Origin: Deltaproteobacteria bacterium
GTDB lineage: Bacteria; Desulfobacterota; Syntrophia; Syntrophales; UBA8958
NCBI GenBank assembly: GCA_026388335.1
Contig: JAPLJZ010000226.1
Span: 1-44,095, forward strand
Reading direction: 5' to 3'
Length of the DNA stretch: 44,095 nt
Shown here: positions 9,875 to 25,284 of the stretch, piece by piece
Layout of the letters: each line of letters starts with the position of its first letter
Position numbering within the stretch: position 1 is the stretch's first letter
The notes under the pieces: generated by a model
The model's database searches: none
What the model saw: the letters and a program-made list of their open reading frames with translations, nothing else
What the model was told of the DNA's origin: nothing
Translations under genes and position numbers: made by a program

Positions 9875-10567
9875 TTGGCACAGCACCTAAAACGGCAAAA
9901 TGTCTATTCCTGCCTTCATTGTTTTAAAGAGGTTTTGGAAAAATCATTGCATACCAGAATGCTCCCTGCCGATCAGAAACAATTGAATAACGACATCAAT
10001 ATATTTCAGCAAGAACTGGCCGCCGCGAAGGCCTTTAAAGAGATGTATGGTCCTGTCACTTTTCGCGACAACGACCCGAAAACCGCCCTCGATTTTTTGA
10101 AACAAATCCTTTTTGTCGAAGACGAAGAGATTTCTTCTAAATTAGAAGAGTCGAATCGTCATGATATTGACGCTGCTGCCTCAAACAATGACGGAAGCGC
10201 ATCTGACCAGGAAATACTTGTCCAAAAAGCCAAGGAATTGATCGACATCGGCGCCTTCGCAAAAGCCAAAGCGATGCTCGGCGAAGATTCGGAACTCCAT
10301 TATCTGATCTTGCAACTTTGCAACACCAAGGGTATCGCATATCGAAAAGCTGGAAATATTGACGGCGCCATCGCCGAGTTTCGTAAGGCCCTTGTCTTTC
10401 ATCCGGATGACGAGGGATTGTATTACAACATCGCCCGGGCCTACCTTGAGAGGAAAGAATGGCAGGATGCGGAAGAGGCGATTTTGCAGGCGGTGGAAAT
10501 CAATCCGGAATTCGCGGAGGGGAAGGCCCTGCTGTCCTTTGTTCGGAAACAGCACGCCGAAGGATAG
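9875..10567 (+). CDS. TPR protein, N-terminus uncertain
   Basis: This protein has up to 230 residues. The C-terminal half holds clear tetratricopeptide repeats (about 140-225: GIAYRKAGNIDGAIAEFRKA, then YYNIARAYLERKEWQDAEEA). The N-terminal 90 residues are helical and end with a VTFRDNDPKTALDFLKQ segment of a kind I recall from TPR proteins of related bacteria. The only in-frame start before this segment is TTG at 9875 without a good ribosome binding site; an in-frame stop precedes it at 9854. The next ATG (codon 29) would remove part of the helical region. The protein may therefore be N-terminally shortened compared with relatives. It heads the glycosylation island; TPRs suggest a scaffold role. 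Confidence 0.75.
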   Translation: MAQHLKRQNVYSCLHCFKEVLEKSLHTRMLPADQKQLNNDINIFQQELAAAKAFKEMYGPVTFRDNDPKTALDFLKQILFVEDEEISSKLEESNRHDIDAAASNNDGSASDQEILVQKAKELIDIGAFAKAKAMLGEDSELHYLILQLCNTKGIAYRKAGNIDGAIAEFRKALVFHPDDEGLYYNIARAYLERKEWQDAEEAILQAVEINPEFAEGKALLSFVRKQHAEG

Positions 10568-10572
10568 GCATA

Positions 10573-10620
10573 ATGTCCATGACAATACATACAGTCTCGT
10601 TAATGGAAAATGGAAATTGA
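10573..10620 (+). other. Possible 15-codon leader ORF overlapping the GT start
   Basis: ATG at 10573, preceded by AAGGA at 7-8 bases, opens a frame reading MSMTIHTVSLMENGN and stops at TGA 10618-10620. That stop overlaps the TTG start codon of the glycosyltransferase (TTGA). This geometry would allow translational coupling. Whether the peptide is made is unknown. Confidence 0.3.
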
Positions 10621-12488
10621 AGCGAAAAAAAGGTAAACCACCTACCCTCTCTGTCTGCATGATCGTCAAGAATGAAGAAGTCTTCCTCGGAAGCTGCCTG
10701 AAAAGTGTTGTTGACCATGTGGACGAGATCATTATTGTCGACACAGGTTCGACTGATCGTACCGTCGAGATCGCAAAAGGCTTCGGCGCCCGCGTCTATC
10801 ACCACCCCTGGCAGGACGATTTCAGTCTCCACCGGAACCAGTCCATCTCCTACGCTAAGGGGCGCTGGATCTTCATCATCGACGCCGACGAGGAATACCG
10901 GGCATCTTCACAGCGAAGCTTGCGGGAGGAACTCGCCATGGCCGAGAAGCAGGGGATCGAGGCGCTGTCCATGCGGCTGGAAAACAGTTGTAATGAAGGT
11001 AAAGAAACCGTCTGCCTCGACTCGATCAGGATCTTTCGAGCGAATGGCCGCATACGTTATGAGGGGATCGTCCACAATTATCTCCTGGGTTTCAAAAACC
11101 ACGCGGCTTCACTGGGACGCATCATCCATTACGGCTACGACCAGGGGCCTGAAGCGGCCCGGAAGAAGTTTGAACGGACGGCGACGCTCCTGCGAAAACA
11201 GATCGAGGAGAACCCAGAAAATGCCCTGGCCCACCTCTATCTCAGCAACTCTTACGCGTCGATGAACCAGAACGAGGAAGCACTGCGGGAGTCTCTGACC
11301 ACCGTGGAACTGGTGGAGACGCAACAGATCACCCATAAGCAGTACTTGAAGGCCTACTACACCGCCGCCCGCTCGTACATTCAACTGCAACGCCTTGATG
11401 AGGCCGAAAGAATCTGCCGGCGGGCCTTGTCCCGCTACGGGAACCACATCGATATTTTCGCCACCCAGACGATGATTCGCCTTATAAAAAAAGACTGGAC
11501 CGGGATTATCGACTTCGGAAGCAGATACCGGGAAGCGCTCGCACACTACCGGAAGCATGAAATCAACCTGGACATGGTGGAAATCGCTACCTACAGCGAA
11601 GAGTGGAAGATCTGCTGCTGGATGGGGATGGCGAAATTAGGGCTGGGAGACTTGGAAGGGGCTGAAACTCTTTACGCCCGAGCCCTTGAAATCACGCCGG
11701 ATAAGGCATTCCTCTGCCGCCAGGCAGGAATAAGTCTCTCTGAAGCAGGCCACCCCGATCGCGCCCGTTTCTATATGGAAGAGGCACACCGTCTCGCCCC
11801 TCCGTCGATCGAGGTACAAAATCCCTCCGCTTCTTCGCACGAGGAGCCTGCCCGCAATGCTTACAATAGCAGTGATCAGGCTCCGGAAGTTGCCGAAAAC
11901 GGCCTGCGCCTGTTTCCTGATCATTCCGAGTCGTATTTTCATAAAGGCATGGCCCTGGAAAAGGCGGGCAGAGTGAGTGAAGCGGAAGATGCATACCGGG
12001 AAACGATCAAGCGGAACAACTCTCATGTAGGGGCCTATAACAATCTGGCCGGCATCCTGCTGCGGCGTAATGAAGATCATGAGGCCCTGAGAATCCTGCA
12101 AACCGCTTCCAACACATCCATGATGAATCATCCTGCCATTCGCTATACCCTCGGGCTGGTCCACAGCGTCCTTGGGAACCATACCGAGGCATTGGAGCAT
12201 TTCGACAAAACCCTGGAACTCGCGCCGGGGCTTAAAAAAGTAAACATTCAGAAGGCCATTATTTTTTTGAAAATCAGCGAATTTGATAATGCCATTAAAT
12301 GCTTGAAGAGCGAAATAGAAAACAGGGGAGATATCATTCCCGCCCTGATCACCCTCGGTGAGATCAGCCTGCGTCTGGGTGATTCCTCACAGGCACTTCA
12401 TTATTTTCATGAGGCGATTTCCGTTGATCCGGACAACATAACCGCGAAAAAACATATTCAATCAATAAACTCAACATATGGTCAATAA
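10617..12488 (+). CDS. GT2-family glycosyltransferase with TPR tail
   Basis: This 623-residue protein starts with a GT-A glycosyltransferase domain of family 2 (about 9-230): LSVCMIVKNEE, DEIIIVDTGSTD, the metal/nucleotide motif DAD at 89-91 and HPWQDDFSLHRN. TPR-like repeats then run from about 190 to the end, interrupted by a loop near 415-445. I chose TTG at 10617, which gives MKRKKGK before the first strand; it matches the TTG start and MKRK opening of the paralogue at 22110. The open frame extends upstream into the TPR gene, but that part is out of the neighbour's frame and has no start signal. Acceptor and donor sugar are unknown. Location just upstream of flagellin suggests a protein or flagellin glycosyltransferase. 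Confidence 0.85.
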   Translation: MKRKKGKPPTLSVCMIVKNEEVFLGSCLKSVVDHVDEIIIVDTGSTDRTVEIAKGFGARVYHHPWQDDFSLHRNQSISYAKGRWIFIIDADEEYRASSQRSLREELAMAEKQGIEALSMRLENSCNEGKETVCLDSIRIFRANGRIRYEGIVHNYLLGFKNHAASLGRIIHYGYDQGPEAARKKFERTATLLRKQIEENPENALAHLYLSNSYASMNQNEEALRESLTTVELVETQQITHKQYLKAYYTAARSYIQLQRLDEAERICRRALSRYGNHIDIFATQTMIRLIKKDWTGIIDFGSRYREALAHYRKHEINLDMVEIATYSEEWKICCWMGMAKLGLGDLEGAETLYARALEITPDKAFLCRQAGISLSEAGHPDRARFYMEEAHRLAPPSIEVQNPSASSHEEPARNAYNSSDQAPEVAENGLRLFPDHSESYFHKGMALEKAGRVSEAEDAYRETIKRNNSHVGAYNNLAGILLRRNEDHEALRILQTASNTSMMNHPAIRYTLGLVHSVLGNHTEALEHFDKTLELAPGLKKVNIQKAIIFLKISEFDNAIKCLKSEIENRGDIIPALITLGEISLRLGDSSQALHYFHEAISVDPDNITAKKHIQSINSTYGQ

Positions 12489-12645: not shown

Positions 12646-14937
12646 ATGAAAATTGAAGATTTAATCAAAACTGGAAAGAAGCATTATATTGACGGCAATT
12701 TGCAGGAAGCGAAGGGTTGTTTCTTGTCAATTATAAAACTTAATCCTTATCACTTGGAGGCTCTCAATAACCTTGCCGTTATTATGTTTTATGAAGGTCA
12801 GAATGATCTTGCCCAAGATATTTTCAAAAAAATCCTTTCTATTGATCCTGTGCATAAAGATGCATTGATGAATTTATACGATTTGTTCAATAAATATGGC
12901 AAGATAACACAATTTATCCCGTACTTGGAAATGGCAATGGCAACCGTCCCTCAGGATCAGGAACTTGAAAAGTTTTTAAAGGATATCAAAAACCAGGTTT
13001 GCCACGAAGAGAATCGGGCCATGCCATCAGAAGTTCTTAATGCAGCAGCTTTCTTTGTCCTCTCCTCTGGCCGTTGCGGCAGCAAAACCTTAAATGAAGT
13101 GATAAACACCGCGGAAAATGTAAGGTCATTCCACACATCCCAGCCAGGCATGGGCCAGGGGTCGTTGGACGCATTCTGGAATAGGATAGATAAGAAAGAA
13201 TTTTTATCCAATTACCATTATCCCCTTATCCAGCAAACATCCAAAGACGGCTTTGTCTTTGGAGAAACCACGCCGGCCATAACCGCCTTTTCTGATGTCT
13301 TAGCTGAGACAATGCCTAAAGCCAAGTTCGTCATCCTTGTCCGGGATCCACTTACCTGCATCCGCTCTGCCCTTTTCCAGAACTTTTATCATGGTCATGC
13401 GGATGATATATATCGATTTACTCCGATAAAGGATACGGATACTTATATTCAATGGGGAAAAAAGATCCAGATAGATAAAATCTGCTGGCTCTGGAATGAG
13501 TTCTACAACATTATTGAAAGGGCAACGGAAAACCTTGATCAAGACAGGCTTATGGTTCTTCGCTTTGAAGATCTCTTTGGCAACATCCAGACTCTCCGCA
13601 GGTTGTTCGATTTTTTGAATTTAAAGGGTTTTTCTTCCTCCCGCGTTTCAGAGGCCCTCAAAGTTAAAAGGAATGCCAATAATTATGGCCGGTTCCCTGC
13701 CGTCAGCGACTGGTCGCCGGAATTTAAGCGGATCATTGAACAAACCTGCAGGAAGCACGCGTTGAAATACGGTTACTTTAAGGCTGATCGGGCGGGGGCC
13801 GATAAAAGATCAAAGCAAACGGTCGTCCATGTCAAAAAAAATCCTGTCGTGACGATCGGCCTACCTGTCTATAATGGTGGAAAGTATCTTGCCGAAGCGC
13901 TGGAATCTATTTTGTGCCAGGATTTTGAAGAATTTGAACTGATCATTTCAGACAACAACTCTAATGACCAAACAAGAGACATATGTGAAAAATACAGTAA
14001 AACAGATAAAAGAATTGTATGTGTATATCTAAGAGAGAATGTCGGGGCAAGACTAAATTTTTTAAACGTTCTCGGACTCTCCAGGTCCTCCTATTTCATG
14101 TGGGCGTCTCACGATGATCTTCGCGAAAAAACTCTTATAAGCAAGTGTCTGGGAGTAATGCAAGCGGATACCTCCATTGCCCTTGTTTATCCTAAAACAA
14201 AAATGCTCGATTCAAATTCAAAATTTATTGATATTGCAAAGGATTATGTAAAAGCCGATCAGGATAATCCCACCGAACGTTTTCTCCACCTCATTTGGGA
14301 ACTTGGAGTTTGTAACATGTTTCATGGCCTTCTTCGCTGTGACCACGCAAAAAAAGTTGTTTCATGGAATCAAACGCTTTTTTTTGACAATCTGTTTCTG
14401 GCTGAGATGGCGCTTGCCGGTAAAATTGTTCAAATTCCCGAACCGCTGTTTATAAGAAGACTAACACGAGATTATAACTATAAATCTCCCGACGACAGAA
14501 ATGAGCAGCTTATGTCGGTAGTCGATCAATCTTTATTTAATCAAGGAATCTCCTTGCCCCATTGTCGATTAACCTATGCTCACCTTGATTTAGTTCATAG
14601 CTCTGATTTTAAAGCTATCCAGAAAAGCATATTGATCCAAGAGGTTCTAAAATGTTTCAAGGCCAGATTCGGCAACCATATGAAATACGAAATTGATAGA
14701 GCCGTAACCCTTATATCGAAAGGCATTTATTATTGGACTTGGCGCAATGATCAATCAGAAGCTAGTTCATTCAGGCAGGTTACGACACTCGGATATTATC
14801 GCATCAGCAATTTACTGAAGACTCTTCAGGAAGCACTTATGATTTACCCGGAAAGAACTGATTTATATCAGTGTTACATAAAATGCCTTGAGCCTCTCAA
14901 TTCGCCTGAGAATTATCTTTGCGCGACGGGAGAATAG
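12646..14937 (+). CDS. TPR - sulfotransferase - GT2 glycosyltransferase fusion protein
   Basis: This 763-residue protein has three parts. Residues 1-115 are TPRs. Residues 134-380 are a sulfotransferase domain with the PAPS 5'-phosphosulfate loop in FVLSSGRCGSKTL (137-149) and the 3'-phosphate motif in KFVILVRDPLTCIRS (227-241). Residues 400-620 are a family 2 glycosyltransferase (VVTIGLPVYNGGKYL, ELIISDNNSNDQT, and SHDD at 488-491 in the place of DxD). The C-terminal 140 residues are unassigned. All catalytic motifs look intact, so one polypeptide may add a sugar and a sulfate to the same glycan. Base composition is visibly more AT-rich than the flanking genes, suggesting acquisition. The 157-base gap before it shows no gene or terminator. 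The ATG has no good ribosome binding site. Confidence 0.85.
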   Translation: MKIEDLIKTGKKHYIDGNLQEAKGCFLSIIKLNPYHLEALNNLAVIMFYEGQNDLAQDIFKKILSIDPVHKDALMNLYDLFNKYGKITQFIPYLEMAMATVPQDQELEKFLKDIKNQVCHEENRAMPSEVLNAAAFFVLSSGRCGSKTLNEVINTAENVRSFHTSQPGMGQGSLDAFWNRIDKKEFLSNYHYPLIQQTSKDGFVFGETTPAITAFSDVLAETMPKAKFVILVRDPLTCIRSALFQNFYHGHADDIYRFTPIKDTDTYIQWGKKIQIDKICWLWNEFYNIIERATENLDQDRLMVLRFEDLFGNIQTLRRLFDFLNLKGFSSSRVSEALKVKRNANNYGRFPAVSDWSPEFKRIIEQTCRKHALKYGYFKADRAGADKRSKQTVVHVKKNPVVTIGLPVYNGGKYLAEALESILCQDFEEFELIISDNNSNDQTRDICEKYSKTDKRIVCVYLRENVGARLNFLNVLGLSRSSYFMWASHDDLREKTLISKCLGVMQADTSIALVYPKTKMLDSNSKFIDIAKDYVKADQDNPTERFLHLIWELGVCNMFHGLLRCDHAKKVVSWNQTLFFDNLFLAEMALAGKIVQIPEPLFIRRLTRDYNYKSPDDRNEQLMSVVDQSLFNQGISLPHCRLTYAHLDLVHSSDFKAIQKSILIQEVLKCFKARFGNHMKYEIDRAVTLISKGIYYWTWRNDQSEASSFRQVTTLGYYRISNLLKTLQEALMIYPERTDLYQCYIKCLEPLNSPENYLCATGE

Positions 14938-15773: not shown

Positions 15774-16835
15774 ATGAGTAACCCAAATCCTGCGTTTTGG
15801 GCCGGAAAGCGGGTTTTGCTCACTGGTCACACTGGCTTCAAGGGATGCTGGATGGCCATCTGGCTGAAGCGTTTGGGTGCCATTGTGACCGGCCTTTCTC
15901 TACCAGCAGGTACCGTGCCAAATCTCTTCACTCTGGCACATGTTTCCGAGCTCTTAAGAAGCGAATTTTGTGACATCAGGGATAGGGAACACATTTGTGA
16001 TCATATTCGAGAAGCCGCACCCGAGATAGTTTTACATTTGGCTGCCCAGCCTTTGGTCCGAGCCAGCTATCGAGATCCGGTAGAAACCTTTGCAATCAAT
16101 GTGATTGGCACGGTTCATGTTCTCGATGCGTTGCGACAAGTGGACTCGATACGCGTGATTGTCGTGGTTACCACTGACAAGGTTTATGCGAACTGCGAAT
16201 GTATTTATCCTTTCCGAGAGGAGGATATGCTGGGTGGTTATGATCCATACAGCGCAAGCAAGGCGGCTTCGGAAATCGTGGTGGCAAGTTACCGCGATTC
16301 GTTTCTCCGGGAACAAGGCGTGGCGGTGGCCACAGTCAGGGCGGGGAATGTAATTGGAGGGGGGGATTGGTCAGAAGATCGTCTTATTCCTGATGCGATC
16401 CGTACCTGGCAAAATGAAAATACTTTGTTTGTACGAAGCCCGGGCGCTGTCCGGCCATGGCAACATGTTTTGGAACCCCTGTCAAGTTACCTTGTGCTGG
16501 CTGAAAAACTTTGGAGCAATCCAAGTCTCGCGGGCCCCTGGAACTTTGGTCCGGAGACAGGTCAGGCCACTACGGTCCGGGAAGTCATTGAACTTGCGCA
16601 TGTGCGTTATGGAGAAGGCTCCGTGGTCTGGGGAGATGGTTTGGAGGGTCCACACGAGGTGGGATATCTTGCGCTGGAAATCGCCAAGGCCAGACACGTG
16701 TTGGGAATTAGGCCTCGCTGGTCTCTAACAACGGCGATTGAAAAGACCATGGACTGGTATCGCGCGGTAAATCTGGGGGCTGATGCACGGGTGCTTTGTG
16801 ATGCACAGATTGTCGAATACGAGGCCGGGGAATGA
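15774..16835 (+). CDS. rfbG: CDP-glucose 4,6-dehydratase
   Basis: NAD-dependent short-chain (extended SDR) enzyme converting CDP-glucose to CDP-4-keto-6-deoxyglucose. The 353 residues carry the dinucleotide motif TGHTGFKG (17-24), TTDKVY (133-138) and the catalytic Tyr159-x3-Lys163 in YSASK. GHTGFKG is typical of the CDP-glucose branch. The stop overlaps the next start by 4 bases. Confidence 0.95.
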   Translation: MSNPNPAFWAGKRVLLTGHTGFKGCWMAIWLKRLGAIVTGLSLPAGTVPNLFTLAHVSELLRSEFCDIRDREHICDHIREAAPEIVLHLAAQPLVRASYRDPVETFAINVIGTVHVLDALRQVDSIRVIVVVTTDKVYANCECIYPFREEDMLGGYDPYSASKAASEIVVASYRDSFLREQGVAVATVRAGNVIGGGDWSEDRLIPDAIRTWQNENTLFVRSPGAVRPWQHVLEPLSSYLVLAEKLWSNPSLAGPWNFGPETGQATTVREVIELAHVRYGEGSVVWGDGLEGPHEVGYLALEIAKARHVLGIRPRWSLTTAIEKTMDWYRAVNLGADARVLCDAQIVEYEAGE

Positions 16836-17395
16836 GCTCACGCTTTATTATAGCTGAAAATGCATTCTCAGGTTTGAAAATCATCGAGCGCAGGCGAATA
16901 GAGGACACCCGTGGGTACCTCGAACGACTTTTTTGCGCGGAGGCGTTGGCAAAGGCCGGGTGGGATAAGCCAATTGCCCAAATCAACCACACTTCCACCA
17001 CCTGCCGGGGCACGGTGCGTGGGATGCACTTCCAGCACCCACCTAACGCTGAGATGAAACTGGTGATGTGTCTTAAGGGCGAGATATTTGATGTAGCGGT
17101 GGACCTGCGAGCTGGTTCGCCAACGTTCCTAAAGTGGCATGGTGAGACGCTCTCGGCCGACAATGGCCTGACACTGCTAATCCCGAAGGGTTTCGCCCAC
17201 GGCTTTCAGACCCTTTCACATGATGTTGAAATGCTCTATTTCCACTCTTCCGTTTATACACCAGAAACTGAGGGAGGGGTGCATCCGATGGATTCGAAGC
17301 TTGCGATTCAGTGGCCGATTGAAATTACTGAGATCTCGGCCCGTGACGCTGCCCATTCCTGGATCACTGATAATCTCCACGGGGTTAAGCTGTGA
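16832..17395 (+). CDS. RmlC-like 4-keto-6-deoxysugar epimerase
   Basis: This 187-residue cupin protein belongs to the dTDP-4-dehydrorhamnose 3,5-epimerase family. The catalytic His66 lies in RGMHFQ and the conserved IPKGFAHGF strand is present. Aromatic residues at 136 and 142 are in the region that holds the catalytic Tyr of RmlC. In this cassette the substrate is probably CDP-4-keto-6-deoxyglucose rather than the dTDP sugar, acting at C3 and/or C5; that is inference from the neighbours. It overlaps rfbG by 4 bases and the methyltransferase by 4 bases. Confidence 0.88.
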   Translation: MSSRFIIAENAFSGLKIIERRRIEDTRGYLERLFCAEALAKAGWDKPIAQINHTSTTCRGTVRGMHFQHPPNAEMKLVMCLKGEIFDVAVDLRAGSPTFLKWHGETLSADNGLTLLIPKGFAHGFQTLSHDVEMLYFHSSVYTPETEGGVHPMDSKLAIQWPIEITEISARDAAHSWITDNLHGVKL

Positions 17396-18621
17396 AGTGC
17401 CGCCACTGCAGATCAAAACTAAATTTGACGGTACTGGATCTTGGCAGTGCGCCACCCTCTAACGCTTATTTGACTGAGGAAACGCTGCATAAACCAGAAA
17501 CATGGTATCCTCTACGAGTGTCTGTGTGCACGGAATGCTGGTTGGCACAGACTGCGGATTTCACAGGGCGCGAAGAACTTTTCACTGGCGAGTATGCCTA
17601 CTTTAGCTCCTATTCCTCCACCTGGCTGGCCCATGCGCAGGCATACGTGGCAGACATGGTCGAACGTTTATCTCTTGATACATCCAGCCTGGTTGTGGAA
17701 ATCGCATCCAATGACGGCTATTTATTGCAATACGTCAAGGATTATGGCATCCCATGTTTCGGTGTCGAGCCCACAGCAAGCACGGCAACCGCAGCCAGAC
17801 TCAAGGGCATCAAGATCATTGAGCGCTTTTTTGGGAAGGATCTTTCCAGAGAACTGGCCAACGAAGGCCACCGGGCCGATCTCATTACGGCCAATAATGT
17901 CCTGGCACATGTACCTGACATCAATGACTTTCTGTCTGGATTTGCCATCCTGCTCAAGCCTAATGGCGTGGCCACATTTGAATTTCCTCATCTTTTGCGA
18001 ATGGTGGCCGAGAATCAGTTTGATACCATTTATCATGAGCACTATTCGTACTTTTCGTTTACCACCGCGAAACGCATCTTTTCAAAAAATGGACTCGTTG
18101 TGTTCGACGTTCAGGAATTGCCAACCCACGGTGGAAGCTTAAGGGTATTCACACGCAGAGCGGACACTGACAAGAACGGCTGGATATCACCTTCAGTGGC
18201 AGAACTCTTACTGCGGGAAGAACACATCGGTATGCAAACCCCAGTTTTTTATGCGGACATTCAATCACGGGCCGACCGGGCCAAGAACGATCTGATGGCC
18301 TTTCTCCTCGAGGCGAAGAAGTCCGGCAAAAAGGTGGCCGGCTACGGAGCCGCGGCCAAAGGCAACACCTTGCTCAACTTTGCCGGGGCAAGACCCGATC
18401 TGATCGAGTATGTGGTTGACCGCAACACCGCCAAGCGAGATAAATACATGCCCGGCAGCCGGATACCCATTGTGGCAGAAGTTCGGATTCGAGAGCAGAG
18501 ACCTGACTATGTGCTAATCCTACCCTGGAATATTAAAGAGGAAGTGATGGCGCAACTGGCCTATGTTCGGGAATGGGGCGGAAAATTTGTTTGGGCCGTT
18601 CCTGAACTGGTCGCTTACTAA
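17392..18621 (+). CDS. NDP-4-ketosugar C-methyltransferase (TylC3/NovU type)
   Basis: This 409-residue SAM-dependent methyltransferase has the three-part architecture of sugar C-3 methyltransferases. It has an N-terminal zinc site (CRHC at 3-6, CTEC at 46-49), a SAM domain (VVEIASNDGY at 101-110) and a C-terminal Rossmann-like domain with GYGAAAKGNT. The segment IYHEHYSYF (213-221) holds Tyr214, Glu216 and His217, matching the catalytic Tyr-x-Glu-His of TylC3. It starts with GTG overlapping the previous stop (GTGA). With RfbF, RfbG and the epimerase it should yield a CDP-3-C-methyl-4-keto-6-deoxyhexose; stereochemistry and final product are unknown, and no 4-ketoreductase is present in the window. 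Confidence 0.88.
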   Translation: MKCRHCRSKLNLTVLDLGSAPPSNAYLTEETLHKPETWYPLRVSVCTECWLAQTADFTGREELFTGEYAYFSSYSSTWLAHAQAYVADMVERLSLDTSSLVVEIASNDGYLLQYVKDYGIPCFGVEPTASTATAARLKGIKIIERFFGKDLSRELANEGHRADLITANNVLAHVPDINDFLSGFAILLKPNGVATFEFPHLLRMVAENQFDTIYHEHYSYFSFTTAKRIFSKNGLVVFDVQELPTHGGSLRVFTRRADTDKNGWISPSVAELLLREEHIGMQTPVFYADIQSRADRAKNDLMAFLLEAKKSGKKVAGYGAAAKGNTLLNFAGARPDLIEYVVDRNTAKRDKYMPGSRIPIVAEVRIREQRPDYVLILPWNIKEEVMAQLAYVREWGGKFVWAVPELVAY

Positions 18622-18660: not shown

Positions 18661-19818
18661 ATGATCTTGTCGAAAATGGAATCACTAATCCCCGTATACA
18701 AACCATTGATCAATGAACATACATTCAAGGCCGCCCACGACGCTCTGGAAAACGGTTGGTTGGGCATGGGTTCCTTTGTGGGTGGATTTGAAGATGCCTT
18801 CTCTCGTTTCATGAACTGTGAGGGCAGACGCTGCGTCGCCGTGGCCACAGGCACCGCAGCCCTGCACTTGGCCATGCTCCTGGCCGGGGTTGGACCCGGC
18901 GACGAGGTCATCACCCCCTCGCTGAACAACATAGGCGACTTTCAGGCCATCAAGGCTGTCGGTGCGGAACCTGTCTTCTGTGACATCCTGGAAGAGAACC
19001 TAGGTATCGATTGCACTTCGGCCGAATCCATGGTCTCCGAAAAGACAAGGGCCATCATCGGCCTTCACTACGACGGCATCCCCTGCGACATGGACGGTGT
19101 ATTTCGATTGGCAGAAAAGCACAACTTGCGGGTCATTGAGGACGACTGTCACGCCATTGGCAGTTACATTAACGGCAAGCACGCTGGCAACTATGGCGAT
19201 ATTGCCTGTTTCAGCTTCGACGCGGTCAAGACCATCACCTGCATCGACGGTGGCATGATTATTGTGAACACCGAAGAAGAAGTCAACAAGTTGCATCAGT
19301 ACCGGCTCATCGGCATGTCCCAATCACACAAGAAACTATATTCAAACAGTCGGTCTTGGCACTACGACGTCTTCGACGTCGGCTTCCGCTATCATCTAGC
19401 AAACCTGCACGCGGCTATCGGCCTCTCCCAATTAGAACAGATCGAGGTCATACTCGCTAACCGGCGGCAGTATTGCTGCTACTATTCAGAACATCTGCGT
19501 GACGTTGAGGGTCTCACCATTCCTATGTCGGACTTCGCAAACGTAGGCCCCTTCATGTACTATGTCCGGGTGCACAACAACCTCAGGCAGGAATGCATCC
19601 AATATCTACTGGAACGCGGCGTGGAAACGGGCATCCACTGGCGTCCTGGACACCAGTTCTCCTTCTTCCAAAATAACAGGCGCGCGGCGCTGCCCGTGAC
19701 CGAAATGATTGGTGAAGAACTTTTGTCCTTACCCATGCACAGCATTATGCCCGACGAGACATTGGATCGGGTTGTGACATGCCTGAAAAGCTTCTTCGCC
19801 TCCCGGAGGGCAGCCTGA
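18661..19818 (+). CDS. DegT/DnrJ/EryC1/StrS-family PLP aminotransferase
   Basis: This 385-residue, fold type I PLP enzyme is of the sugar aminotransferase family. It has the GTAALHLAM segment, the acidic cofactor residue in VIEDDCHAIG (Asp161/162) and the Schiff-base Lys190 in CFSFDAVKTITCIDGGM. The usual His-Ala-x-Lys is replaced by Asp-Ala-Val-Lys. AAAGGA precedes the ATG. The likely reaction is transamination of an NDP-ketosugar; in this context it could act at C4 of the branched CDP sugar, giving an amino sugar. That is inference, and a separate pathway cannot be excluded. It shares a TGATG junction with the radical SAM gene. Confidence 0.88.
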   Translation: MILSKMESLIPVYKPLINEHTFKAAHDALENGWLGMGSFVGGFEDAFSRFMNCEGRRCVAVATGTAALHLAMLLAGVGPGDEVITPSLNNIGDFQAIKAVGAEPVFCDILEENLGIDCTSAESMVSEKTRAIIGLHYDGIPCDMDGVFRLAEKHNLRVIEDDCHAIGSYINGKHAGNYGDIACFSFDAVKTITCIDGGMIIVNTEEEVNKLHQYRLIGMSQSHKKLYSNSRSWHYDVFDVGFRYHLANLHAAIGLSQLEQIEVILANRRQYCCYYSEHLRDVEGLTIPMSDFANVGPFMYYVRVHNNLRQECIQYLLERGVETGIHWRPGHQFSFFQNNRRAALPVTEMIGEELLSLPMHSIMPDETLDRVVTCLKSFFASRRAA

Positions 19819-21308
19819 TGCGCGTTCTGCTCGTTTATCCTAATGTCAGAGGCCTGAACATGCTGCCGCCGGCAGTAGCCTCCTTTTCAGCACTGCTGAA
19901 AGACAACGGCCATGACACGCTACTATTCGACACGACCTACTATAACCCCCAAGACGATGACCTCATAGACGGAGAAAGCTATAAGGAGCAACAACTGCAC
20001 GTGCCGCTGTATAAAAAGCCAACGGATGATATCAGCCTCCAGACCACGGATGTTTATGAAGATTTCCTATCCAAGGTGGAAGCCTTCGATCCCCAACTAA
20101 TCGCCTTGTCCTGCACAGAAGACTTGTTCCCTTTCGCCATCCGCCTGCTCAGGCATATCAGGACCAAAACCACGGCTAAGATTCTTGTGGGTGGCCTGTT
20201 CCCAACTTTTGCACCGGAGAAGGCTATCGCCTACGACTGCATCGACATGATTTGCGTGGGTGAGGGTGAAGTGGCACTGGTTGAAATCTGCAACAAGATG
20301 AGTAGTGGTCAGTCATATACACATGTTACCGGGCTATGGATCAAGGAGAGCGGGCAACTTTTTCGCAATGAGATAGGTTTGCCATTCGACATTGACTCCG
20401 GTCCTTTGCTGGATCTTGACATTTTTGAGGAACGACGTTTCTATCGACCCTTCGCCGGCAAAATTTACAAAACCTTTCCCGTTGAGACCTATCGGGGCTG
20501 TCCCTATCGATGCTCCTATTGCAACTCGCCGATGCAGCGGAATCTTTATCTCCAGAGCGGCAAGAGCTTTTTGCGCATTAAGAGCATTGATCGTGTCTTC
20601 GACGAAATGCGTTACTTCAAGGATAATTATCAAGCCGAATACCTCTACTTCTGGGCCGATACCTTCTTAGCCTCTCCTAAGAGCTATCTTGCCGAATTTC
20701 GAGATCGTTATATCAGCGAGATCAACCTTCCCTTCTGGATACAGACTCGAGCTGAGACTATATCGCATGAGAACATGCAACTGTTGAAGAGTATGGGTGT
20801 GCACCGCATTGGCCTCGGGCTGGAGCACGGTAACGAAAAATTCCGGAAAGAAGTGTTAAAACGCAACCTCTCCAATGCCCATACAATAGAACGGTTGAAC
20901 TTGATAAATGAATATAATGTTCCATTCTCGGTGAACAATATAATCGGCTTTCCGGACGAGACACGCGAACTGGCATTCGACACTATCCTTTTGAACCGCG
21001 ACATTCCCGCCGACACCCGCAACATGTATACCTTTACACCGTTCCACGGAACCGAATTGCGCACAATCTCCGAGAGGCGAGGCTACATCTCCCCTGATAT
21101 AATCGCCTCCTCCCTGGCCAAGCCCACTGTCTTGAACATGCCTGAGTTTCCGGCACACGAGATCGAGGGCATCAAGCGCTGCTTCGTGCCCTACGTGCTT
21201 CTGGAAAAGGATCGTTGGCCCGAAATCCGCCCAGCCGAAAACCTGACCCCCGAAGGCGATGCCACATGGCAGCAGCTAATGCATGAATGCAAGGAACGCT
21301 TTTTCTAA
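19818..21308 (+). CDS. Radical SAM protein with N-terminal B12-binding-like domain
   Basis: This 496-residue protein starts at ATG 19818, overlapping the previous stop (TGATG) with GGAGG 8 bases upstream. Residues 1-160 look like a cobalamin-binding-type Rossmann fold (VLLVYPN; PQLIALSCTEDLF; ILVGGLFPTFAPE; ICVGEGE), but the DxHxxG cobalamin-ligand motif is absent. The radical SAM cluster motif is GCPYRCSYC with Cys228, Cys232 and Cys235, followed by a TIM-barrel-like segment (IGLGLEHGNEKFRKEVLKR). Members of this class methylate, epimerise or rearrange diverse substrates; the substrate here is unknown. Sugar modification is inferred only from its neighbours. Confidence 0.87.
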   Translation: MRVLLVYPNVRGLNMLPPAVASFSALLKDNGHDTLLFDTTYYNPQDDDLIDGESYKEQQLHVPLYKKPTDDISLQTTDVYEDFLSKVEAFDPQLIALSCTEDLFPFAIRLLRHIRTKTTAKILVGGLFPTFAPEKAIAYDCIDMICVGEGEVALVEICNKMSSGQSYTHVTGLWIKESGQLFRNEIGLPFDIDSGPLLDLDIFEERRFYRPFAGKIYKTFPVETYRGCPYRCSYCNSPMQRNLYLQSGKSFLRIKSIDRVFDEMRYFKDNYQAEYLYFWADTFLASPKSYLAEFRDRYISEINLPFWIQTRAETISHENMQLLKSMGVHRIGLGLEHGNEKFRKEVLKRNLSNAHTIERLNLINEYNVPFSVNNIIGFPDETRELAFDTILLNRDIPADTRNMYTFTPFHGTELRTISERRGYISPDIIASSLAKPTVLNMPEFPAHEIEGIKRCFVPYVLLEKDRWPEIRPAENLTPEGDATWQQLMHECKERFF

Positions 21309-21326
21309 CCCACAAGGATGCGCCTC

Positions 21327-22085
21327 ATGATCATCATCGACAACGAAACTGTGATCCTACAAGAGCAAGGCTCTGAGGTCCGCTACCAAATCGGCACTCC
21401 CGAAGCATTCCAGGTCCTGTCCGAACTTTGGCTACGCTCGGGTTGGGACACTAAGTACGTCTACAGCTTTTCCTGGCTGGGAAGGCCTATCATTCAATTG
21501 CCCGAGGATATGGTTCGCATCCAGGAAGTGGTCTTCGACATAAAACCGGACTTCATCGTAGAAACCGGCATCGCCCACGGCGGATCCCTTGTCTTCTACG
21601 CCACTCTTTGCAAGGCCATGGAACATGGCCACGTCATTGGCGTAGACATTGAGATCCGACCCCACAACAAAAAGGCAATCAACGAACACTTCCTTAAACC
21701 CTATATCACAACCATTGAAGGCGACTCCACCTCCCAAGAGACATTCGATGCTGTGCGCAGGCTCATTCCAGCAGGCTCCACCGTGGTCGTGATGCTCGAC
21801 TCCAACCACACCAAGGAGCACGTCCTCAAGGAACTGAGACTCTACTCCGGGCTTGTTTCTATAGGCTCCTACATCGTGGTCATGGATGGTATCATGTCTA
21901 AGGTAGTGGGCGCGCCTCGCAGCAGCCCCGACTGGGCCTGGGACAACCCCATGGCGGCATCTAAGGTGTTCGTCGCGATCAACCCGAACTTCGAGATTGT
22001 CGAGCCCGAGTTCCTGTTCAACGAGGGGCAAATTACCGATAGGGTTACATACTGGCCCGGTGCTTACTTGAAAAGGGTTTCGTGA
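21327..22085 (+). CDS. CmcI/rhamnosyl O-methyltransferase-family protein
   Basis: This 252-residue protein is of the cephalosporin hydroxylase (CmcI) family, whose members are mostly SAM-dependent O-methyltransferases of sugars. It shows the SAM-site strand DFIVETGIAHGGSLVFYA, then GVDIEIR, EGDSTS and the VMLDSNHTKEHVL motif. I chose ATG 21327 over ATG 21318 because the only ribosome binding site (AAGGA, 21314-21318) touches the earlier codon but is spaced 8 bases from the later one. It probably methylates a glycan hydroxyl made by this island; substrate unknown. Confidence 0.83.
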   Translation: MIIIDNETVILQEQGSEVRYQIGTPEAFQVLSELWLRSGWDTKYVYSFSWLGRPIIQLPEDMVRIQEVVFDIKPDFIVETGIAHGGSLVFYATLCKAMEHGHVIGVDIEIRPHNKKAINEHFLKPYITTIEGDSTSQETFDAVRRLIPAGSTVVVMLDSNHTKEHVLKELRLYSGLVSIGSYIVVMDGIMSKVVGAPRSSPDWAWDNPMAASKVFVAINPNFEIVEPEFLFNEGQITDRVTYWPGAYLKRVS

Positions 22086-22109: not shown

Positions 22110-23747
22110 TTGAAAAGAAAAAGTTTGTTAAAAAAAAATGTGAAGCCCACAATATCCCTGTGCATGATCGTGAAAAATGAAGAAGCCTGCCTCGACCGCT
22201 GTCTGAAAAGTGTTTGCAATTATGTCGATGAGATCATTATCGTCGATACGGGTTCAACGGATAACACCATAGACATAGCCGAAAGTTACGGCGCCCGAAT
22301 CTATCATCACCCCTGGGAGAATGACTTCAGCAAACACCGTAATCAGTCACTTTCCTATGCCACGGGCGACTGGATATTTCAGTTGGACGCCGATGAGGAG
22401 CTTTTTCAGGAAGACGGGTCGATACTGAGGGATGTCGTCCGGGACGGGAAGGCCGATTTTTTTCATTGTCGTTTTTACGACATGAAAAAGGACGGTTCTG
22501 TCCACGGCGTCTTCTATTTAATCCGGCTGTTCCGAAATCACATGGGGATGGGTTATGTTCGGAAAGTCCATAATCAGCTCCGTACGCAAGGACGGGAGGC
22601 CTATAGTAAAATCAGGATCCGGCACTACGGATATGATCTGTCGGCAGACCAAATGGAGGCAAAGCATGTCAGGACGACAACGCTTTTGAAGGAGACCCTT
22701 GCGAGCGATCCGGAGGATGTTTACAGTGTATATCAATTATCTGCGTCTTATTCCATGCACCGCGAGGTTGACAAGGCCATCAAGTACGGAGAAATGGCCC
22801 TGGACATAATGCGCCGCAAACAGCTTAAAAATGGATATTTCATGACGGTATTCTATTCAGTAGCACAGGGGTACCAATCTATGGGCAAAGTGGATGATGC
22901 GGAACGTATATGCCTGGAAGCCCTCGATTTATTTCCCATGGATATGGACATGTGTCATCTCCTCGCCGCCATTTATTTCCGTAAACAAAAAAAGGATCTA
23001 TGCAATGCCATGTCGGAGCGCTATCTCAATATCTATGATTCTTTTGAGAAGAATCCCCTGCTCTTCGGGAATTATTACTGTCATAGTTATGCTAAAAGAA
23101 ACGAGATATACTTCGGTTTGGCATTAATCCACTTTCTGGAAAATGATTTTGAATCCGCAGACGCCTTTTTTATTAAGTCTTTTGAAGATGCAGGCAATAG
23201 CCTCCAAAAGGCCGAGAACATCTGCCGCTTCTATTTCGAACAACGAATGGAGGACAATGCGTTGCGATGGCTGAAGATTGCCTATCAAGCAGGTCTTGAC
23301 TCCGATAAAGTCCCGTCTATACTTGATGAACATAAGGTTCTATATATGAATATCGGTAAAGATTTCCTGAAGCAGGACGATCTGAAAACTGCCGCCGATT
23401 GTCTGCAAAAAGCCGTCGATGAGGGACTTACTGCCGAAGAACAACTTGAAAAGAGGCTTTTACAGGTCAGCCTATGCTGGCGGATGGAAGCCACGGATGA
23501 ATTGATTCGATCTATAGAATCGCTCATGCAGATTATGGGGTTGAATACCAAGCGCAACATCTCGACATTTGATGACTTGGGGCAGATTCTCTATGATGTT
23601 GCCGAATTATTTTGTATTAGCCGTCACTGGCCTTTCGCTGAACTGGCCCTCCAGATTGCTCTGCAGATCGCCCCTACCCTATTCTTACCTGCCAAGTTCG
23701 ACAGCCTGCTGCAAGGCGTCGAACAGAAAAGAACTTCATCATCGTAA
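22110..23747 (+). CDS. GT2-family glycosyltransferase with TPR tail (paralogue of the gene at 10617)
   Basis: This 545-residue protein has a GT-A domain (about 14-210) with ISLCMIVKNEE, DEIIIVDTGSTD, YHHPWENDFSKHRNQS and DAD at 93-95. Helical repeats follow, including two recognisable TPR-like segments near 255-290 and 325-380. TTG at 22110 is supported by GGAG at about 9 bases and by the matching TTG start of its paralogue. The N-terminal domains of the two align without gaps over the first 80 residues of the fold. It is the last gene of the island and the one nearest flagellin, so it is the best candidate for the enzyme acting on FliC. Confidence 0.88.
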   Translation: MKRKSLLKKNVKPTISLCMIVKNEEACLDRCLKSVCNYVDEIIIVDTGSTDNTIDIAESYGARIYHHPWENDFSKHRNQSLSYATGDWIFQLDADEELFQEDGSILRDVVRDGKADFFHCRFYDMKKDGSVHGVFYLIRLFRNHMGMGYVRKVHNQLRTQGREAYSKIRIRHYGYDLSADQMEAKHVRTTTLLKETLASDPEDVYSVYQLSASYSMHREVDKAIKYGEMALDIMRRKQLKNGYFMTVFYSVAQGYQSMGKVDDAERICLEALDLFPMDMDMCHLLAAIYFRKQKKDLCNAMSERYLNIYDSFEKNPLLFGNYYCHSYAKRNEIYFGLALIHFLENDFESADAFFIKSFEDAGNSLQKAENICRFYFEQRMEDNALRWLKIAYQAGLDSDKVPSILDEHKVLYMNIGKDFLKQDDLKTAADCLQKAVDEGLTAEEQLEKRLLQVSLCWRMEATDELIRSIESLMQIMGLNTKRNISTFDDLGQILYDVAELFCISRHWPFAELALQIALQIAPTLFLPAKFDSLLQGVEQKRTSSS

Positions 23748-23982: not shown

Positions 23983-24091
23983 ATGATAAAGCACAAACGA
24001 TGAAGGGAGGAGGTGAAGGGAGTTGCGGCAAGGGTGACCGGGAACAAAGTAAGATGGAATCCGGTCTAACAATGTTAATTAGATAAAATGC

Positions 24092-24141
24092 TCCGGCAAG
24101 GATGCCGGAATAATTCCGCAAGGAAAACAAAATCAAGGAGG
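24092..24141 (+). promoter_or_regulatory. CsrA-type binding sites in the fliC leader
   Basis: Three AAGGA motifs occur in the leader. The first (24098-24102) sits across the loop of a perfect 7-bp hairpin, TCCGGCA-AGGA-TGCCGGA. The second (24120-24124) lies at a smaller TTCC-GCAA-GGAA hairpin. The third (24135-24139) is part of the Shine-Dalgarno AAGGAGG. CsrA binds AnGGA in hairpin loops, and pairs of such sites including the Shine-Dalgarno are known on the Bacillus subtilis hag mRNA. csrA and fliW lie 6 kb away. Confidence 0.65.
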
Positions 24142-24150
24142 ATAAAAATC

Positions 24151-25284
24151 ATGGGATTCAGAATTCAAAACAACATCGCGGCAATGAATGCACAGAGAAA
24201 CTTGGGCATTTCCGACAGTGGTATGGCTAAGTCACTGGAAAAACTATCTTCAGGCTATCGGATCAACTCCGCAAAGGACGACGCCGCCGGTCTGGCTATT
24301 TCTCAGGGTTTCCGGGCTGATATCGCCAGTGTCAAGGTTGCTCAGAGGAATATTTCTGAGGCAAACGCGCTCCTGCAGACGGCGGAAGGCGCCATGAGCA
24401 GCGTCGGCGACATCCTCACCCGTATGAAGGAACTGGCCACTCAGGCCGCATCGGCTAATGTCGGTACGGACGTTACTAAGCTGAGTACAGAGTATAACTC
24501 CCTCGTGAATGAAATCAACCGCATTGCCGACTCGACTAAATACGCGGGGACATCTCTCGTAAATGGCGCCTTCGGGACAACCGCCAATACGACCACCAGT
24601 TTTGATGCAGTCGCCAACGTTTATAGCGTGGACGTCTCCCAGGCTCCCTCGACCACCGGCGGCGCCTATACGGTCAGCTACAGTGCGGCTGCCGATGCTT
24701 TGACAATCAGCAGAGGGAGCGTCTCAGAGACGCAGACATTAGTCTCTGGCGAGGGCGTGGTGAGCTTCTCCAGCTTTAATATCACTTTCAAGACCACGGC
24801 CGCCTTTGATGAAGACACTGGCGGTGCAGCACTTGCGGCGGCGGGTCTGACAGTTACGGCCGGTACGGGAACGGCGAAGAATTTCCAGGTCGGTTATGAG
24901 GAAGACTCCAATTCCCAACTGGCAATCAGCCTGGGAGATCTCAACACGGCTGCACTTAAAGACAGTGGGTCGGGTGTCGCGTTGAATGACATCAGCACCT
25001 CTACCGGCGCTTTGGCAAAAATGAGTGATATCGACGATGTTATCGATAAGCTCGCCAGTATTCGCGGCGACATCGGCGCCTACCAGAATCGCCTTGGTTA
25101 TGCGGCAGGCAATCTGGCCTCCACGCTTGAGAACTTCACGGCGGCCGAATCGGTCATTCGCGATGTCGATATGGCTTCGGAAATGACAAACTTCACCAAG
25201 AATCAGATTCTTGTCCAGGCTGGCACCTCCATGCTGGCGCAAGCCAATATGTCTTCACAGGGTGTCCTCGCGTTGTTCAAGTAA
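24151..25284 (+). CDS. fliC: Flagellin
   Basis: Filament subunit of 377 residues. The start is ATG 24151 (MGFRIQNNIAAMNAQRNL), with AAGGAGG at 9 bases; the open frame extends upstream but that part is leader RNA. The N-terminal D0/D1 region (about 1-140) has LEKLSSGYRINSAKDDAAGLA and the C-terminal D1/D0 region (about 290-377) has the DVDMASEM and LAQANMSSQGVLALFK signatures. The central 150-290 stretch is Ser/Thr/Ala/Gly-rich and variable, offering many potential O-glycosylation sites. Control appears threefold: sigma-28, sigma-54 and CsrA/FliW. A strong terminator follows. Confidence 0.97.
   Translation: MGFRIQNNIAAMNAQRNLGISDSGMAKSLEKLSSGYRINSAKDDAAGLAISQGFRADIASVKVAQRNISEANALLQTAEGAMSSVGDILTRMKELATQAASANVGTDVTKLSTEYNSLVNEINRIADSTKYAGTSLVNGAFGTTANTTTSFDAVANVYSVDVSQAPSTTGGAYTVSYSAAADALTISRGSVSETQTLVSGEGVVSFSSFNITFKTTAAFDEDTGGAALAAAGLTVTAGTGTAKNFQVGYEEDSNSQLAISLGDLNTAALKDSGSGVALNDISTSTGALAKMSDIDDVIDKLASIRGDIGAYQNRLGYAAGNLASTLENFTAAESVIRDVDMASEMTNFTKNQILVQAGTSMLAQANMSSQGVLALFK

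Follow-up and report, generated by a model that had tools for sequence, protein, structure and literature searches.

A TPR–sulfotransferase-like–GT2 fusion protein in a flagellar glycan cassette of Syntrophaceae, with an exchanged glycosyltransferase half

INTRODUCTION

The closest functional precedent for the protein described here is FlmG of Caulobacter crescentus, whose TPR domain is sufficient for flagellin binding in two-hybrid tests and whose glycosyltransferase part modifies flagellins (PMC7591256). The two proteins share N-terminal TPRs and a C-terminal glycosyltransferase in one polypeptide and a tie to flagellin, but FlmG belongs to the GT-B superfamily and adds pseudaminic acid (PMC7591256), whereas our protein has a GT2 domain, an associated CDP-sugar cassette and a sulfotransferase-like domain between the two parts. 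It is FlmG-like in layout and not a member of the FlmG family, the glycosyltransferases being non-homologous.

The nearest published cases are sulfur-bearing flagellins of two kinds. The type B flagellin glycan of Clostridioides difficile is a sulfonated peptidylamido-glycan (PMC5207245); here, too, a bacterial flagellin glycan carries an acidic group with sulfur, but this group is a sulfonate, with a different chemistry and gene set, and not a PAPS-derived sulfate ester. Halobacterial flagellins are sulfated glycoproteins according to Wieland (1985), as cited in PMC11980604. Our literature search, outside which most subscription journals fell, found no report of a sulfated bacterial flagellin or of a TPR–sulfotransferase–glycosyltransferase protein. 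What we regard as new is a TPR–GT type of putative flagellin glycosyltransferase with a conserved, sulfotransferase-derived insert.

RESULTS

A same-strand glycan cassette leading to fliC

The window is the whole 44,095-nucleotide stretch of DNA that was analysed (contig JAPLJZ010000226.1 of assembly GCA_026388335.1, genome G000). Within it, a single open frame runs from ATG to stop and encodes the 763-residue fusion protein (ORF analysis). A glycan cassette on the same strand begins with the fusion gene and extends to fliC, with these features:

10359–12488, plus strand: upstream GT2–TPR protein; the true start probably lies downstream of the listed one
12646–14937, plus strand: TPR–sulfotransferase–GT2 fusion gene (FUS), 763 aa
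14991–15767, plus strand: rfbF-like sugar-1-phosphate nucleotidyltransferase, presumed glucose-1-phosphate cytidylyltransferase (PF00483)
15774–16835, plus strand: rfbG, CDP-glucose 4,6-dehydratase (TIGR02622, 459 bits, cut-off 278)
16832–17395, plus strand: rfbC-like 3,5-epimerase (PF00908)
17392–18621, plus strand: sugar C-methyltransferase (PF08421, PF13489, PF08484)
18661–19818, plus strand: DegT/PseC-like sugar aminotransferase (PF01041; below the PseC cut-off)
19779–21308, plus strand: B12-binding radical SAM protein (PF04055, PF02310)
21318–22085, plus strand: CmcI/rhamnosyl O-methyltransferase-like protein (PF04989)
22110–23747, plus strand: downstream GT2–TPR protein; the replaced cassette has its right edge near the 5′ end of this gene (about 22146)
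24088–25284, plus strand: flagellin fliC, presumed substrate (PF00669/PF00700)

On the 5′ side of the fusion gene lie dprA, topA, trmFO, a lytic transglycosylase gene, an HD-GYP regulator gene and the GT2–TPR gene. Beyond fliC come fliD and fliS, followed by FlaG, FliW, a second flagellin-like (FlgL-like) gene, FlgK, FlgN, FlgI, FlgH and other flagellar genes. From this gene content we read the window as a flagellar locus carrying a glycan cassette. A preliminary description of this DNA had the gene next to flagellin; the cassette does lead to fliC, but fliC itself is about 9.15 kb downstream, with eight plus-strand genes in between. Pfam searches revealed no O-antigen ligase, flippase or polymerase in the window cassette.

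The glycosyltransferase domains of the two GT2–TPR proteins listed above resemble SunS S-glycosyltransferases (TIGR04195, below cut-off). In several relatives, GT2–TPR copies of this type border the exchanged cassettes, where they could act as recombination sites. We also note that two Syntrophus MAGs, G006 (locus L008) and G005 (locus L009), encode a Gfo/Idh oxidoreductase–hexapeptide transferase fusion of 529–542 aa between the upstream GT2–TPR gene and the fusion gene (L008:8391–9977; same place in L009), which is absent from the window.

Architecture and motifs of the fusion protein

The preliminary description of one polypeptide joining TPRs, a sulfotransferase and a GT2 domain is borne out, as Pfam recovers all three in the one frame:

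12646–13005, plus strand: TPR domain, residues 1–120 (TPR_2 at residues 38–68, E 3e-6)
13027–13803, plus strand: sulfotransferase-like (ST) domain, residues 128–386 (PF13469 and PF00685 matches)
13063–13092, plus strand: PSB-like loop SSGRCGSKTL, residues 140–149, with R143 (motif alignment)
13261–13281, plus strand: GETTPAI, residues 206–212, with candidate base E207 (motif alignment)
13330–13374, plus strand: 3′-phosphate site VILVRDPLTCIRSAL, residues 229–243, with R233...S241 (motif alignment)
13840–14937, plus strand: GT2 domain and C-terminal extension, residues about 399–763 (PF00535; TIGLPVYNGG, ISDNNS and WASHDD motifs)

The ST domain scores above the curated cut-offs for both Sulfotransfer_3 (PF13469, residues 166–327, E 4.7e-12; 47.1 bits versus 27) and Sulfotransfer_1 (PF00685, residues 136–327, E 3.6e-7; 30.3 bits versus 22). 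The GT2 domain matches Glycos_transf_2 (PF00535) at residues 404–514 with an E-value of 2e-19 and has the acidic motif WASHDD at residues 486–491. Both cofactor motifs are present in the sulfotransferase part, as had been claimed, with a P-loop of non-standard sequence (RCGSK instead of the usual RSGTT). AlphaFold models, for which 3–5 close sequences served as input, were poor (pLDDT 43 for the whole protein and 41 for the ST domain alone); the TPR domain reaches about 72–89 at residues 1–100 and about 60 at residues 101–120. A frame error or chance ORF is ruled out by the occurrence of the same domain order in five genomes.

The gene had also been described as AT-richer than its neighbours, and it is: GC content is 40.8% (TPR 34%, ST 45%, GT 39%) versus 46–54% for the neighbouring cassette genes. 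The TPR and ST regions of L008 and L009 are similarly low (36–37% and 42–43%, respectively), so the AT-richness of the TPR–ST half is inherited and not the mark of a recent import. Recent import of the whole gene as the cause is ruled out by the same comparison.

Distribution among relatives

A search for the same domain order in other genomes, as the preliminary description had suggested, covered named genomes and 60 relatives and found it in four relatives from other assemblies. The L008 and L009 proteins are 61–63% identical to the window protein overall; identity is 37–38% for G001, which is of the same genus and has a frame break inside the GT2 part, and 37–39% for G008, which is of the same family. 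No further carriers were found among 11 genomes of the family, and an ST-domain profile detected only these five carriers, all Syntrophaceae, among 155 genomes of the class. Downstream of the fusion, flagellin follows after 9–13 kb in the window and in G005 and G006; G001 has it at a contig edge, about 11 kb off. For G008, tblastn with the window flagellin found none near the copy within its 44-kb contig. FliC or flagellar neighbours accompany the gene in four of the five carriers. A profile scan of viral contigs found no relative of the ST domain; tblastn against plasmid and phage records gave no match covering 80% of the query, and among the matches listed it was mainly the GT2 part that aligned.

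TPR–GT2 proteins that lack an ST domain (about 530–554 aa; L010, G040, G045 and G177) are the phylum-wide form, and L011 is a fragment of a GT2 of the L010 type. These five share with the fusion a homologous GT2 and C-terminal region (52–70% identity) with a TPR in front, and several of their loci carry the same rfbF–rfbG–rfbC–methyltransferase genes as the window; they differ in having no ST domain and a TPR only about 30% identical to that of the fusion. Genes of this form often stand with rfb genes or a methyltransferase gene, and with fliC (flagellin islands) in G040 and G177. L010 and L011 come from two MAGs labelled ‘Proteobacteria bacterium’, and their GT2 type and rfb genes are the closest to those of the window.

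Intragenic recombination and cassette exchange

The relatedness of the fusion gene changes partway along its length. The window protein shares 79–82% identity with L008 and L009 in the TPR domain, 83–85% in the ST domain, 45–48% in the GT2 domain and 26–30% at the C-terminus; with the ST-less L010 protein, the values are 33% for the TPR, 64–66% for the GT2 and 75% for the C-terminus. At the nucleotide level, the blastn match to L009 ends at 13776, and that to L010 begins at 13855 and extends to 15759, past the fusion gene and through rfbF. Alignment of the bases places the switch at the conserved first strand of the GT2 domain, giving one further feature:

13846–13870, no strand: intragenic recombination breakpoint and left edge of the replaced cassette (identity switch from L008/L009 to L010; conflicting trees)

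In the GT tree the window groups with L010/L011 (support 100/99) and a single clade of ST carriers is rejected (p-AU 0.0014), whereas the TPR tree unites all five ST carriers (95/93). The GT state of the window is derived, because the other four ST carriers have one common GT type. Flanking genes are Syntrophus-like (topA 96%, trmFO 91–92%, fliD 83% in G005 and o32185 about 90%), and because this holds beyond the cassette on both sides, the replaced segment extends from about 13.85 to 22.1 kb. The fusion gene is therefore a recombinant, in which the GT2 half and the downstream CDP-sugar genes were replaced and the TPR–ST half was left in place. L010 and L011 are likely to be near the donor of the cassette.

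Residues and PAPS genes

The residues that define sulfotransferases are a lysine or arginine in the PSB and a serine in the PB motif (PMC11625862). R143 and S241 are present in the window, L008 and L009 proteins, and equivalents of R233 and S241 are retained in all five members; the PSB arginine is replaced by Asn in G001 and by Leu in G008, where the E207 equivalent is also replaced. The ST domain is under purifying selection (dN/dS 0.12–0.17, versus 0.24–0.40 for the TPR domain). A profile of the five ST sequences (A2) weakly reaches sulfotransferases in the PDB, namely CurM (4gbm, E 1e-4) and TPST; phmmer with a single ST domain found no sulfotransferase there. Relative to the Sulfotransfer_3 and Sulfotransfer_1 families (for example NodH, the CurM sulfotransferase and TPST), the fusion is alike in profile match and in the order of its PSB-like and 3′-PB motifs, but its ST domain forms a narrow lineage of its own (5/155 genomes of the class) with the non-standard RCGSK loop, in which two members have lost the PSB arginine and the carriers mostly have no PAPS genes.

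PAPS synthesis genes, whose absence would have refuted sulfation according to the preliminary description, are present in the window genome: it has an APS kinase with an intact Walker A motif and a Sat that is part of a pyruvate kinase–PUA–Sat fusion. This 723-aa protein (contig C40, L039:13680–15851, minus strand) combines a pyruvate kinase barrel, PUA_2 and ATP-sulfurylase, adjoins the APS kinase and has HTRN in place of QTRN as its Sat motif. The pair is on a different contig from the fusion gene, in an O-antigen-type cluster, and no sulfotransferase was found among the neighbours scanned around it. The same pair occurs in G004 (L100), where it must serve something else because that genome has no PF13469 gene. 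Neither Sat nor an intact APS kinase was found in G001, G005, G006 or G008; G005 is 78% complete, which makes its absence weak, and the others are 98–100% complete. A weak APS kinase match in G006 (contig C6, L102:6595–8505, plus strand) is a CysN-like GTPase with an APSK-like C-terminal domain without Walker A. The three genomes of the order that carry an ordinary Sulfotransfer_3 gene served as a control: G013, G043 and G056 each gave a strong APS kinase match, which in two cases lay within 4 kb.

DISCUSSION

Our best explanation of these data as a whole, which we favor by a modest degree, is that the fusion would be a cytoplasmic, modular and FlmG-like flagellin glycosyltransferase. The N-terminal TPRs would dock flagellin; docking is the likeliest TPR role because layout and genomic setting are the same as for FlmG, and the experimental FlmG precedent (PMC7591256) supports, by analogy, the earlier suggestion that the TPRs hold a protein. 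The C-terminal GT2 would transfer a sugar, and since this GT2 type travels with CDP-6-deoxysugar and C-methyltransferase genes (window, L010 and G040), the donor is probably a CDP-linked, C-methylated 6-deoxysugar made by the products of the downstream rfbF–rfbG–rfbC–methyltransferase genes. The middle module would descend from a PAPS sulfotransferase acquired by the TPR–GT2 architecture in Syntrophaceae. Because most carriers cannot make PAPS, it probably serves family-wide in binding or positioning; true sulfation could occur only with PAPS synthesis, as in G000, and may have been lost in the relatives. In the window lineage, intragenic recombination swapped the GT2 half along with the sugar genes that follow it.

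Three other readings bear on parts of this picture. The chimeric gene could be an artifact of MAG assembly in which two organisms were joined at the start of the GT2 domain, and the window genome is indeed a MAG-like draft (268 contigs, 4.9% contamination). However, the same Syntrophus lineage lies on both flanks beyond the cassette, so two such breakpoints would be needed, the parents lack extended identity at the junction, and the frame stays open across it for 763 aa. We consider misassembly very improbable and reject it on the evidence of the flanks. A second reading is that the gene acts on a surface polysaccharide, either LPS or capsule, and is close to fliC incidentally. Sugar genes of the kind found in this cassette are also used for O-antigens, and the G008 copy has no flagellin nearby; set against this are the fliC or flagellar neighbours of the other four carriers and of the ST-less G040 and G177 genes, and a window cassette in which Pfam revealed no ligase, flippase or polymerase for O-antigens. 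A polysaccharide target seems unlikely to us.

The third reading concerns the ST domain, which might be an active enzyme that transfers sulfate from PAPS to flagellin or to the sugar added by the GT2 domain. Consistent with this, the window protein keeps R143, E207, R233 and S241, its ST domain is more tightly constrained than its TPR domain, APS kinase and the Sat fusion are encoded in the same genome, and the fusion gene is the sole PF13469 match there; the sulfated halobacterial flagellins cited above offer a parallel. However, G005 and G006 keep both the ST domain (83–85% identity) and R143 yet have no Sat or intact APS kinase, G004 has the APS kinase–Sat pair without a PF13469 gene, and in G000 that pair is not with the fusion gene. 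PAPS-dependent sulfation, as first proposed, is thus compatible with the residues and genes of the window genome but is not supported as a rule for the family, in which four of the five carriers are without Sat and intact APS kinase and two lack the PSB arginine. For the window protein itself, PAPS sulfotransferase activity is possible but somewhat doubtful, and we view the bifunctional enzyme with the same reserve. The proposal that one sugar is coupled with one sulfate is also weakened, because the GT2 half was exchanged and the ST half kept. What can be offered tentatively, with slightly less doubt, is that the TPR–ST half stays at the flagellar locus and the GT half is exchanged with its sugar-nucleotide genes, the outcome being a sulfated flagellin glycan, or, equally, that the ST fold has been re-used without PAPS for acceptor positioning.

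For our preferred model of a modular flagellin glycosyltransferase, the recombination point is the seam between a locus-bound half (TPR–ST) and a sugar-specific half, and a flagellar glycan could be changed in one step, as a new glycosyltransferase brings along the genes that make its donor. The carriers also provide a natural test of whether an ST domain can persist and remain under selection where PAPS is not synthesised, a question that affects to what extent a sulfotransferase annotation justifies inferring sulfation.
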